In this document: positions 15,796 to 21,117 of the stretch, in pieces
Layout of the letters: each line of letters starts with the position of its first letter
How positions within the stretch are numbered: position 1 is the stretch's first letter
Source of the DNA: Coriobacteriia bacterium
GTDB lineage: Bacteria; Actinomycetota; Coriobacteriia; Anaerosomatales; PALSA-660
DNA length: 46,305 nt
Assembly (NCBI GenBank): GCA_023252055.1
Contig: JAHEXP010000008.1
Location: 1-46,305, forward strand
Direction: 5' to 3'
Notes under the pieces: model-generated
The model's database searches: none
Seen by the model: the letters and a program-made list of their open reading frames with translations, nothing else
Told to the model about the DNA's origin: nothing
Program-made: the position numbers and the translations under genes

Positions 15796-16047
15796 CTAGA
15801 CGAGTTCCACCGTGACGTCAGGGGACGCCGTGCGGCCCTCGAGTGCGGCGATCGCATCGTCGAGCTTGGCACGCGCCTCACCGAGCAGGACGCCCGCCTG
15901 TGCGAGCTCGGCCGACGCCTCCGGCTTCTTGCCGTGGTCGGCCAGGTGGTGAAGCTGCTCGAGCCACTGCTGCGACAGCGCGATGGCGTCGTCGACCTGG
16001 CCCACCGACAGCTTCAGCTGCGGAACGTTCACGCTGTTCTCACACAT
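15796..16047 (-). CDS. Small conserved-looking helical protein of unknown function
   Basis: 83-aa ORF directly following trxA, same strand; helical, acidic. Confidence 0.6.
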   Translation of the reverse strand: MCENSVNVPQLKLSVGQVDDAIALSQQWLEQLHHLADHGKKPEASAELAQAGVLLGEARAKLDDAIAALEGRTASPDVTVELV

Positions 16048-16083: not shown

Positions 16084-16413
16084 CTAGCCGAGGTAGGCGG
16101 ACAGCTCGTCGACGAGCTTCTTCTTCGGCATGGCGCCCACGAGCTTCTTCACGACGGCGCCGTTGACCACGACGAGAAGCGTCGGGATCGAGAGGACGTC
16201 GAAGCGCATGGCGGTGTTCGGATTGTCGTCGACGTTGAGCTTGCCGACCGCGAGCTTGCCGACGTTCTCGGCCGCAAGCTCCTCGAGCACCGGCTCCATC
16301 ATGCGGCACGGGCCGCACCACGGCGCCCAGAAGTCGAGGAGGAACGGAACGCTGCTGCCGGCGACGACGCTCTCGAAGGTCGCGTCTGTGACGGCTGTGA
16401 TCAGGTCGCTCAT
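16084..16413 (-). CDS. trxA: Thioredoxin
   Basis: 'FLLDFWAPWCGPCRMMEPVLEELA', cis-Pro 'SIPTLLVV'; start at 16413. Confidence 0.96.
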   Translation of the reverse strand: MSDLITAVTDATFESVVAGSSVPFLLDFWAPWCGPCRMMEPVLEELAAENVGKLAVGKLNVDDNPNTAMRFDVLSIPTLLVVVNGAVVKKLVGAMPKKKLVDELSAYLG

Positions 16414-16477: not shown

Positions 16478-17416
16478 CTACAAGGTACAGACGCCCGAGT
16501 CCAGGTATCGCAGCGCCTCGAAAGCCGCCGTCGCGCCCTGTCCGGCCGCCGTGACGACCTGCTTGAGCGGTGTATCCGTGACGTCGCCGGCCGCATACAG
16601 GCCCATGTACGAGGTCATCATCGAAGAGTCGACCTTCACCCAGCCGCCGTCGGCAAGGTCCGCCAGGCCGACCATGAGGTCGCTGTTCGGGTGTACTCCC
16701 ACGAACTCGAAGACGCCGGACAGCGCCAACATCTCATCGGGTCCGCCGTCGGTCGCCTGCAAGACGATGCCCGACACCTTTCCCTCGTGTCCGGTGATCT
16801 CGACCGGGATGCGGTTGTAGTGCACCTCGATCTTTTCGTTGGAAAGCGCGCGCTCCTGGATGCACTTCGTCGCGCGGAACTCCTCGCGGCGATGTATCAG
16901 GTGGACGCGCTCCGCGAACTTCGTGAGGAACATCGCCTCCTCGAGAGCGGCGTCCCCGCCCCCCACGACGGCGACGATCTTGCCGCGGTACAGAGCGCCG
17001 TCGCAGGTCGCGCACCACGAGACGCCGCGGCCCGTGTACTCCGCCTCGCCGGCGATGCCCAGCTTGCGGGGGGTCGAGCCCGTGGCGAGGATGACGGTGC
17101 GCGCGAGCGCCTCGCCGTCGTCGCTGACGAGGCGGAACCCCCCGCTGTCGGGCCGGATCTCCTCGATCGGGGCGAACGTGCGGAAGGTCGCGCCGAACTT
17201 CTCCGCATGCGCGTGCATGAGCTCGCCGATGCGGCTGCCGTTGAGGCCCTCCGGCATGCCCGGGTAGTTCTCGATCCAGTCGGTTGTGATGATCTGGCCG
17301 CCGGGCAGCTGCGTCTCGAACACGACGGTGTTGGCCCGGGCGCGTGCGCCGTACAGGGCGGCGGTGAGCCCCGCCGGTCCTCCACCCACGATCGCTATGT
17401 CGATGATCTCCGTCAC
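16478..17416 (-). CDS. trxB: Thioredoxin-disulfide reductase
   Basis: 'IVGGGPAGLTAALYGARA', redox-active 'WCATCDGALYRGK', 'VVGGGDAALEEA', 'GLYAAGDVTD'. Confidence 0.96.
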   Translation of the reverse strand: MTEIIDIAIVGGGPAGLTAALYGARARANTVVFETQLPGGQIITTDWIENYPGMPEGLNGSRIGELMHAHAEKFGATFRTFAPIEEIRPDSGGFRLVSDDGEALARTVILATGSTPRKLGIAGEAEYTGRGVSWCATCDGALYRGKIVAVVGGGDAALEEAMFLTKFAERVHLIHRREEFRATKCIQERALSNEKIEVHYNRIPVEITGHEGKVSGIVLQATDGGPDEMLALSGVFEFVGVHPNSDLMVGLADLADGGWVKVDSSMMTSYMGLYAAGDVTDTPLKQVVTAAGQGATAAFEALRYLDSGVCTL

Positions 17417-18528
17417 AGGGCGCTCCCCTCGGTGGTCACTGGTTGTCCCGCGGCCTTCGCGTCCTTCTGCACCTGGGCGAGCAGCATCGCCGCTCGCTGG
17501 TTGACGGAGGCGAGGTCAGTATTCCCGCGTGTCAGGGAAATGACGCGTGAGAACTGGTTGGCCGCGTTCTGGTACTGGATGGGGTCGGTGCTCATGTACA
17601 TGACGCCGAGGTTCAGGTTCGCGTTGACGTGGTCCGGATCGTGCCCGAGCACCGTCTTGAGCTCGGTGATCGCGACGTCGACCTTGCCCTGCCGCAGGTA
17701 GTCGGTGGCCAGATCGGTGCGTGCGTCGTCGTCCTTCGGGTCCAGCGCGATGACGCGCTCCCAGTACTTCACCGCGAACGGCAGGTAGGCGGTGTTCTGC
17801 TGAGCGAGGTTGTCGTAGACCGTGGCGAGCGAAACGAGCGTGTCCAGGTCATTCGGGTCCTTCTGCAGCCGGAACAGGTAGTTCAGCTCCTGCTGTTGAT
17901 CGACCGACAGTTGCGCGAGGAACTCGGGCGGCAGGTCGGTCAGCCCCGCCGTCTGCTTTCCGGCCGCGAAGGGGCTGAACAGCGTGAGATAGATCGCAGC
18001 CGCAAAGACAGCAAGTGCCACGCCGAGGATGCCGAGGGCCGTACGGTACCGCTGGAACGGACGCACGAAGAGCCTCTTCAGCGCGCCCTCCTCGGTCTCC
18101 ACGCGCTCGACCTCCAGGTGGTAGGACTGCGCCTTGAGCAGCATGTTGAGGTCGTTGGTGACGAGCGTCACCGGCCCGTCCCCGTTCGCATCGCGCACCG
18201 CCACCGCAACCGCGACGATCCGGTCGTCGGTGTTGCGGGAGTTGAGCCCCGCCGGGATCTCGGCCGAGGGCTCGATCCCGACGACGCGCACGCGGCCGCC
18301 CCCGCGAAGCTCCACCCCGTCCTTGAGGCTGCCACGCTCCGAGAGCTCGAACAGCGCGCGACTGATCTGGCGCCCGCGGTACCTGAGTTCGGGGTCGACC
18401 CGCGCGGTCTTGAGCTTGTCGATCTCGGACAGCACCATCTCGGGGATGACGACGTCCGCATCGTGGAACGTGTCGATCACGCCCGGATCGGACAGGAGCA
18501 CGTTCGTATCGATCACGACGGTACGCAC
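17413..18528 (-). CDS. PIN-domain (PhoH-type PIN) protein with single TM helix and C-terminal TPR domain
   Basis: GTG start at 18528; 'VVIDTNVLLSDPGVIDTFHDADVVIPEMVLSEIDKLK...NTDDRIVAVA...VTNDLNMLLKA' PIN motifs; TM 'ALGILGVALAVFAAAIYLTLF'; TPR-like 'AVKYWERVIALDPKDDDARTDLATDYLRQGKVDVAITELKTVLGHDPDHVNANLNLGVMY'. Confidence 0.82.
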   Translation of the reverse strand: MRTVVIDTNVLLSDPGVIDTFHDADVVIPEMVLSEIDKLKTARVDPELRYRGRQISRALFELSERGSLKDGVELRGGGRVRVVGIEPSAEIPAGLNSRNTDDRIVAVAVAVRDANGDGPVTLVTNDLNMLLKAQSYHLEVERVETEEGALKRLFVRPFQRYRTALGILGVALAVFAAAIYLTLFSPFAAGKQTAGLTDLPPEFLAQLSVDQQQELNYLFRLQKDPNDLDTLVSLATVYDNLAQQNTAYLPFAVKYWERVIALDPKDDDARTDLATDYLRQGKVDVAITELKTVLGHDPDHVNANLNLGVMYMSTDPIQYQNAANQFSRVISLTRGNTDLASVNQRAAMLLAQVQKDAKAAGQPVTTEGSAL

Positions 18529-18750: not shown

Positions 18751-21117
18751 ATGTCGACGATCGACGAGTCACCCACCGAGATACCGGACGTTCTGCCGCT
18801 GATCCCCCTGAGGGACCTCGTACTCTTCCCCAACCTCGTCGTGCCGCTGTTCGTGGGCCGTGAGAAGTCGATCCTCGCGCTCGAAGAGTCGCTGCGCGGC
18901 GACCACCTCGTCGCGCTCGTACTGCAGCGCGAGCCGGAGACCCAGGACCCGGGAGAGAACGACATCTACCCGGTGGGCTGTGTCGGCACCGTCCTGCAGG
19001 AACTCAAGCTCCCCGACGGGACCGCCAAGGCTCTTGTCGAAGGCGTCGTGCGCGTTCGCGTTCTCGAGTACGTGACGTCCGAGCCCTACCTCCAGGTCCG
19101 TGTAGAACGGATCGAGGAGGAGCTCGCGTCGGATGTGGAGACGCAGGCACTCATGCGCGCGCTGCTCGCTGATTTCGAGAAGGCCGCGGAGCTGGGGAAG
19201 CCGATCCCGCAGGAGGTCCTGATCGCCGCCGGCGCCATCGAGGAACCCGGCCGGCTCGCGGACTTCGTCGCGTTCCACCTCAACCTCAAGTCCGATGAGA
19301 AGCAGGCGATCCTCGAGGCGGCCAAGCCGATCGCGCGGCTCGAACAGGCTTCGATGTTCCTACGCCAGGAACTCCAGATCCTCGAGCTGGGCTCGAAGAT
19401 CCAGAACCGCGTGAAGGAGTCGCTCAACGCCTCGCAGCGGGAGTACTTCCTGCGCGAGCAGATGAAAGCCATCCAGCAGGAACTCGGCACCTTCGACGAG
19501 ACGCAGCAGGAACTCGACGAGTACCGCGAGAAGATCGTGGCCGCCAAGATGCCGGAGGGCGTCGAGGCGAAGGCGGTCAAGGAGCTGGGGCGTCTGGAGA
19601 AGATGCCGCAGGCCGCAGCCGAGACCGGTGTGATCCGCACCTACCTCGATTGGCTCGTCGGCGTTCCGTGGGCGGTCGAGGATGACGAGAAGCTCGACCT
19701 CATCGAAGCGCGCCGCATCCTGGACGAGGACCACTACGGTCTCGAGAAGGTCAAGGAGCGCATCCTCGAGTACCTCGCGGTCCACAAGCTCACCGACACG
19801 ATGCGCGGACCGATCCTGTGTTTCGTGGGACCTCCGGGCGTGGGCAAGACATCGATCGGCAAGTCGATCGCCCGCTCGTTGGGTCGCAAGTTCATCCGCA
19901 TGTCGCTGGGTGGCGTACGGGACGAGGCTGAGATCCGCGGCCACCGTCGCACGTACGTGGGCGCGCTCCCGGGGCGCATCATCCAGTCGATCTCGACGGC
20001 GGGCACGCGCAACCCGGTCTTCATGATGGACGAGATCGACAAGGTGGGCGTCGACTTCCGAGGCGACCCCACGGCGGCGCTGCTCGAAGCTCTCGACCCC
20101 GAGCAGAACGACAGTTTCCAGGACCACTACCTCGAAGTGCCGTTCGACCTGTCCGACGTCATGTTCATCACGACGGCGAACATGCTCGATACGATCCCGC
20201 CCGCCCTACAGGACCGGATGGAGGTCATCCACTTCCCGGGCTACACCGAGGACGAGAAGCTCCACATCGCCCGGCAATACCTCGTGCCGAAGCAGTTGCG
20301 CGAGCACGGCCTCAAGACCACGAAACTCGAGATAACCGACGAGGCGCTCAGCGAGATCGTCAGGCGTTACACCCGTGAGGCGGGCGTGCGCGGCCTCGAG
20401 CGGCAGATCGCCTCGATCTGCCGGCAGGTGGCTCGCCGCGTCGTCGAGGGCCATGGCCGCAAGACGCGCGTGACACAGCGCACGGTCCACACGTACCTCG
20501 GCCCCGCGCGCTTCAGCTACGGCATCGCCGAGGAGTCCGACGAGGTCGGCACCGCCACCGGTCTTGTGTGGACCGAAGTCGGCGGCGATGTCATCTCCAT
20601 CGAAGCCACAACGATGGCGGGCAAGGGCGAACTCATCCTCACGGGTCAGCTCGGCGACGTCATGCGTGAGTCCGCCCAGGCGGCGGTGTCCTACATCCGC
20701 GCCCATGTGTCCGACTGGGACATCGACCCCGCCTTCAACGAGAAGCTCGACCTGCACATCCACGTGCCCGCGGCCGCCACGCCGAAGGACGGGCCCTCCG
20801 CGGGCATCACGATGGCCACGGCGATCGCATCTGCGCTCATGGGATGCCCGATCCGGCGTGAGGTCGCGATGACCGGCGAGATCACCTTGCGCGGCCACGT
20901 GCTGCCCATCGGCGGCCTCAAGGAGAAGCTGCTGGCGGCGCACCGAGCCGGGATCAAGACGGTGCTGATCCCGAAGGAGAACGTGCGCGACCTCGATCTT
21001 CTGCCGCCGCACGTACGCGACGAGGTGGAGATCGTGCCGGTGGAGCGCATGGACGAGGTGCTCGCCCGGGCGCTGGTGGCGCCGTGTCGGCCCAACGCGC
21101 GGAAGACCGCCAAGTGA
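18751..21117 (+). CDS. lon: ATP-dependent Lon protease
   Basis: '[23 protein letters not shown]', Walker A '[15 protein letters not shown]', protease '[14 protein letters not shown]' Ser-Lys dyad region. Confidence 0.98.

Follow-up and report, generated by a model that had tools for sequence, protein, structure and literature searches.

A membrane-tethered PIN domain fused to TPRs and encoded next to trxBA in deep-branching Actinomycetota

The stretch of DNA analyzed here (46,305 nt from a Coriobacteriia bacterium, called the window below) encodes a protein in which a PIN domain, one transmembrane (TM) helix and TPRs follow one another from the N- to the C-terminus. On the reading favored here, to which we would give about an even chance, it is a PIN endoribonuclease tethered to the membrane, and its extracytoplasmic TPR domain binds a partner in the envelope, by which the nuclease is regulated or placed. 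PIN, TPR and the thioredoxin system are each well known, while the fused architecture is apparently undescribed: neither the protein nor its MurJ/DUF6049/trxBA context was described in the open-access literature searched, where the matches to YacL were to the unrelated E. coli YacL. The features of the locus are as follows.

16084-16413, minus strand: trxA, thioredoxin (TIGR01068, 115 bits, above cut-off; start read from the sequence)
16478-17416, minus strand: trxB, thioredoxin-disulfide reductase (TIGR01292, 351 bits, above cut-off)
17413-17416, minus strand: 4-nt overlap, GTGA, of the PIN-TM-TPR gene and trxB, with a Shine-Dalgarno-like GAGGGGAG upstream
17413-18528, minus strand: gene for the PIN-TM-TPR protein (GTG start, 371 aa; full length kept in 72 aligned copies)
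17494-17880, minus strand: TPR domain, about residues 217-345, predicted to be extracytoplasmic (Pfam, AlphaFold, Foldseek)
17980-18036, minus strand: single TM helix, residues 165-183, N-terminus predicted inside (hydropathy maximum and K/R flanks)
18100-18519, minus strand: PIN domain, residues 4-143, with acids D7, E35, D101 and D126 (Pfam, AlphaFold, Foldseek)
18751-21117, plus strand: lon protease gene, divergent, the upstream boundary of the locus (ORF, named Lon by inspection)

An earlier note, made from the sequence alone, had placed all three parts in one ORF, and its coordinates were exact. The GTG start matches the start in most homologs. The note had named confinement to one genome and an assembly-induced fusion as evidence against its proposal. 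The architecture is not confined to the window genome: 76 relatives were found when one genome per species was scanned, and the relatives from two collections are all PIN-TM-TPR fusions. An assembly or frame fusion is ruled out, both domains lying in one intact frame in every complete relative. All but two of the relatives have a named phylum or lower taxon, in every case within the Actinomycetota; genomes beyond this phylum were sampled by the pattern scan (one genome per species) only. Of 397 genomes sampled across the phylum, 39, from many families, gave a strong match. Within the class sample, full-length copies were found in nearly all members of the window's own order and in some families of other orders, and in many families there is no full-length protein and the match is confined to the TM-TPR half. 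Full-length copies are single in nearly all of the genomes searched. Overall, the gene is widespread in deep-branching Actinomycetota.

The PIN domain is the best-conserved region of the protein, with 26 of the 28 invariant columns in an alignment of 33 diverse copies. Residues 4-143 match Pfam PIN_4 (E 2e-25, 90 bits, cut-off 21.9). The best NCBIfam match, for residues 2-146, is to PhoH2 (NF053827; E 3e-20), at 72.6 bits against a cut-off of 680 and over only the N-terminal positions 2-144 of the model's 427, in keeping with the earlier observation that the PhoH ATPase is absent. The description of the domain as "PhoH-type" holds in part; the PhoH2 match supports it, but the domain also resembles the PIN domains of SMG6 and Dis3. 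The PIN domain of PhoH2 is broadly of this type and is fused to the PhoH ATPase, where the window protein instead has a TM helix and TPRs. No PhoH2 match above cut-off was found in the sampled genomes of the class, in which the PhoH ATPase matches belong to a separate gene. That gene is class-wide and present also where the PIN protein is not, and a split PhoH2 acting in trans was rejected as a candidate.

Foldseek searches with the full-length model were swamped by the TPRs, so the PIN domain was modeled separately (AlphaFold pLDDT 92.9, pTM 0.87). Its matches include the PIN domains of SMG6, AF0591, Thermus 3ix7 and Dis3 (E from 3e-6 to about 1e-4), with VapC5 as a weak structural match. In a profile alignment D7, E35, D101 and D126 fall on D1251, E1282, D1353 and D1392 of SMG6 (residues counted along chain 2hww_A); this alignment is marginal by E-value (0.046), and given the marginal HMM match the case for SMG6 likeness is one of fold and residue mapping. 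The four SMG6 residues are its canonical catalytic acids, and D1353A or D1392A abolishes activity (PMC12923823). Because the window acids fall on these four, the predicted metal site is called complete.

The acidic motifs pointed out earlier (IDTN, SEIDK, NTDDR and TNDLN) are all present and correspond to D7, E35/D37, D101/D102 and D126. Variation of these acids among homologs had been named as evidence that would count against the proposal, and they do not vary: D7, E35, D101 and D126 are invariant in all 72 full-length copies aligned, as are T8, N9, D37, K40, D45, R53 and R57 and the whole of T124-Q134 (TNDLNMLLKAQ). From this we infer that the protein is probably an active RNA-cutting enzyme. 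A catalytically silent PIN, serving as an RNA-binding or protein scaffold, has a precedent in SMG5, whose PIN domain is without catalytic residues and without endonuclease activity (PMC12923823). SMG5 has lost those residues, however, while here the four acids together with D37, K40, D45, R53 and R57 are kept in 72 of 72 copies, and a silent domain seems improbable.

The PIN domain and the TPRs had been suggested to lie across the membrane from each other, and the charge bias around the helix bears this out. When K and R were counted in the 15 residues on either side, the window copy had five before the helix and one after, and an excess on the N-terminal side was found in 77 of 77 copies (means 5.0 vs. 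0.84). By the positive-inside rule, PIN should be cytoplasmic and the TPR domain extracytoplasmic. No conserved second TM helix was found among the 77 copies.

Several Pfam models of TPRs, which are tandem 34-residue helical repeats, score above cut-off over about residues 221-312. In the AlphaFold model, residues 221-360 form alpha-alpha repeats with pLDDT mostly 93-98 (92-98 over the blocks), and the top Foldseek matches of the full-length model are TPR structures. Proteins resembling the TM-TPR half alone are found across the class (for example L103:6185-6841 and L102:5835-6770). These score up to 108 bits in profile searches, TPR profiles being promiscuous, and sit in other neighborhoods, for example near tatA (identified by eye). 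Descent of the TM-TPR half from such a class-wide paralog is possible.

The 4-nt overlap with trxB and the presence of trxA beyond it were as first described. The GTGA is common to both genes, the trxB start (17416) overlapping the stop region of the PIN-TM-TPR gene; GAGGGGAG lies six bases 5' of the trxB GTG, and trxA is 64 nt downstream of trxB. An identical start offset (-3) is found in 14 relatives. The linkage was checked, as had been suggested, in the 62 loci with enough downstream sequence. In 55 of these trxB is directly downstream of the PIN-TM-TPR gene, in 60 trxA is within about 2 kb downstream, and in 53 both hold. The conservation of the acids, the topology and this linkage is well beyond chance.

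Other genes recur beyond trxA. About 39 loci share, downstream of trxA, a gene for an 83-aa protein without a Pfam match (MCENSVNVPQLKLSVGQVDDAIALSQQWLEQLHHLADHGKK..., window 15796-16047, minus strand); genes that by eye resemble those for NikR, CbiM or HypF often come after it. A gene of the DUF3842 family comes after trxA in about 19 loci (for example L036:6430-6870 and L059:6443-6931).

The earlier note had proposed a membrane-anchored RNase or scaffold linked to thiol redox homeostasis. The first part, a membrane-anchored PIN domain with a full acidic site, stands; the redox link fares less well, since the window protein has no cysteine at all. In its stronger form this proposal would have thioredoxin switch a pair of cysteines in the PIN domain through TrxB and TrxA. 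The trxBA adjacency is very stable, and in 37 of 72 copies the only cysteines are two in the PIN loop 105-120, a pair that is kept while its spacing varies (CxxC, CxxxC, CxxxxC or Cx6C). Set against this, the nearest kin of the window protein (L002-L005) likewise have no cysteine, the Aquicultor relatives are without the pair and have nonetheless kept the trx linkage, and Actinomycetota loci that have no PIN gene also place trxBA close to DUF6049/MurJ. Taken together, a redox-tied RNase or scaffold appears quite unlikely. The presence or absence of the pair needs about eight changes on the tree, and the pair has therefore been gained or lost several times. Copies with it include L011, L021, L045 and L040; in such carriers, not in the window copy, it could possibly be a redox switch or disulfide, or a metal site.

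The linkage is better explained by the wider neighborhood of the gene. Of the 77 loci, 59 have a Lon homolog encoded on the strand opposite the PIN gene. In 55 loci an upstream gene of about 650 codons shares the strand of the PIN gene and, if lon is at its usual position, lies between lon and the PIN gene. Its product, judged by eye, begins with what looks like a signal peptide and carries a TM segment at the C-terminal end; it weakly matches DUF6049, at E-values of about 1e-5 to 4e-7 that are below the Pfam cut-off. In some loci this DUF6049-like exported protein also matches GH57, with E-values down to 5e-16 (L070:1445-3562, L054:3-1910 and L075:1155-3104), which may point to what DUF6049 does. 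The gene is absent from the window locus and from the assembly of the window genome. L002-L003, the closest relatives, and three of four genomes of the same genus also lack it; the fourth, G088, has it. MurJ is directly before the PIN gene in two lineages (L054 and L069/L156), and the gene order in L156 is DUF6049-like, MurJ (E 1e-78), PIN-TM-TPR and trxB. In about 20 loci, the gene directly upstream of the PIN-TM-TPR gene encodes a small protein of about 120-130 aa with a single TM segment and no clear Pfam assignment (for example L052:3595-3978, L060:3391-3870 and L070:3559-3930).

DUF6049 was also searched for in 41 genomes of the phylum. None of 14 DUF6049-centered Actinomycetota loci has the PIN gene in the stretch examined. 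In 12 of the 14, trxB is 4-8 kb from DUF6049, usually with trxA; it was not found near the other two, the end of the contig limiting at least one of them. The PIN-TM-TPR gene therefore belongs to an old actinobacterial envelope neighborhood that includes trxBA and is present with or without the PIN gene. Since trxBA is near DUF6049/MurJ even where there is no PIN gene, the linkage needs no dedicated redox function to account for it. In M. tuberculosis, trxB2-trxC is a neighbor of cwlM, whose product regulates peptidoglycan synthesis, and cells depleted of TrxB2 lyse (PMC7527780). The three DUF6049-to-trxB intervals that were read contain MurJ and a Ser/Thr kinase in L155, both a kinase and a sigma factor in L149, and a sigma factor in L153. 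Such kinase and sigma-factor genes in the MurJ-to-trxB interval of other Actinomycetota suggest that the PIN-TM-TPR protein may have a regulatory role.

The same neighborhood bears on whether the protein could be a VapC-type toxin of a toxin-antitoxin pair. The PIN fold and the weak structural match to VapC5 would fit a toxin. The conserved neighbors, however, are lon, the DUF6049-like gene, trxB and trxA, with no vapB-like gene among them, and neither a nearly order-wide gene in a fixed neighborhood nor a large TM-TPR extension is what a VapC would lead one to expect, so that this explanation is very improbable indeed.

A broader possibility is a general membrane nuclease for RNA decay or quality control, working in parallel to RNase Y, with the TPR domain only an anchor or a means of oligomerization and no sensing. 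RNase Y, a membrane-tethered bacterial endoribonuclease, is a KH-HD enzyme with a fold unrelated to PIN, and occurs in the same genomes as the PIN-TM-TPR protein. Among 17 sampled genomes of the class it was found in 16, the sole miss being the window's own, 75%-complete genome; RNase E/G was found in nine, including the PIN-bearing ones of the window's order. Replacement of either enzyme by the PIN-TM-TPR protein is ruled out, as both coexist with its gene. A complete predicted active site and the single copy in nearly every genome searched would suit a general nuclease. The coexistence of RNase Y, by which the bulk decay of RNA at the membrane is already provided for, together with RNase E/G in the window's order, makes a specialized role likelier than general decay; anchoring does not need a well folded extracytoplasmic TPR domain, and the gene neighbors are envelope genes rather than RNA-decay genes. 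A general decay enzyme is thus rather unlikely.

Several known proteins share parts of the design. SMG6/EST1A, the eukaryotic NMD endonuclease, has the same four acids in an active PIN domain and combines PIN with TPR-like helices in one protein, but in reversed order and without a TM helix, so that the analogy is one of parts, not orthology. The N-terminal PIN of Dis3/Rrp44 has the fold and leading acidic motifs in common with the window protein; Dis3/Rrp44 itself is an exosome subunit with an RNB exonuclease and has no TM helix or TPR. Thermus 3ix7, a Foldseek match to the window PIN, is presumably a YacL-type membrane PIN-TRAM protein; proteins of this type have a membrane-tethered PIN, a TRAM domain and several TM helices, and no extracytoplasmic TPR. 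In IRE1 one TM helix joins a sensor outside the cytosol to a cytosolic RNase, which is a kinase-KEN nuclease. Its likeness to the window protein is in topology alone, with no relation in sequence or fold.

For the PIN-TM-TPR protein as a tethered endoribonuclease with an envelope partner, the following scheme is proposed. The N-terminal PIN domain, with its four-acid metal-dependent site, would be cytoplasmic, the one helix would serve as anchor, and a TPR domain of few repeats would be outside the membrane. PIN would cleave RNA at the membrane. The TPR domain would bind a partner that is exported or resides in the envelope, possibly MurJ or the DUF6049-like protein, and this binding would position or regulate the nuclease, so that the state of the envelope could reach mRNA. 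A more specific version is a transmembrane sensor-RNase with IRE1 topology built from unrelated parts, in which the extracytoplasmic TPR domain reads the envelope state, through either the flipping of lipid II or the DUF6049-like protein, and controls the cutting of specific mRNAs by the cytoplasmic PIN; as stated, this seems unlikely.

The adjacency of trxBA here reflects an ancient envelope neighborhood more than a redox circuit, which corrects a tempting inference. Given its cell-wall and thioredoxin gene neighborhood, the PIN-TM-TPR protein may take part in envelope-to-RNA signaling. If the nuclease is active, it would be a bacterial link from the exterior of the membrane to RNA cleavage within one polypeptide.
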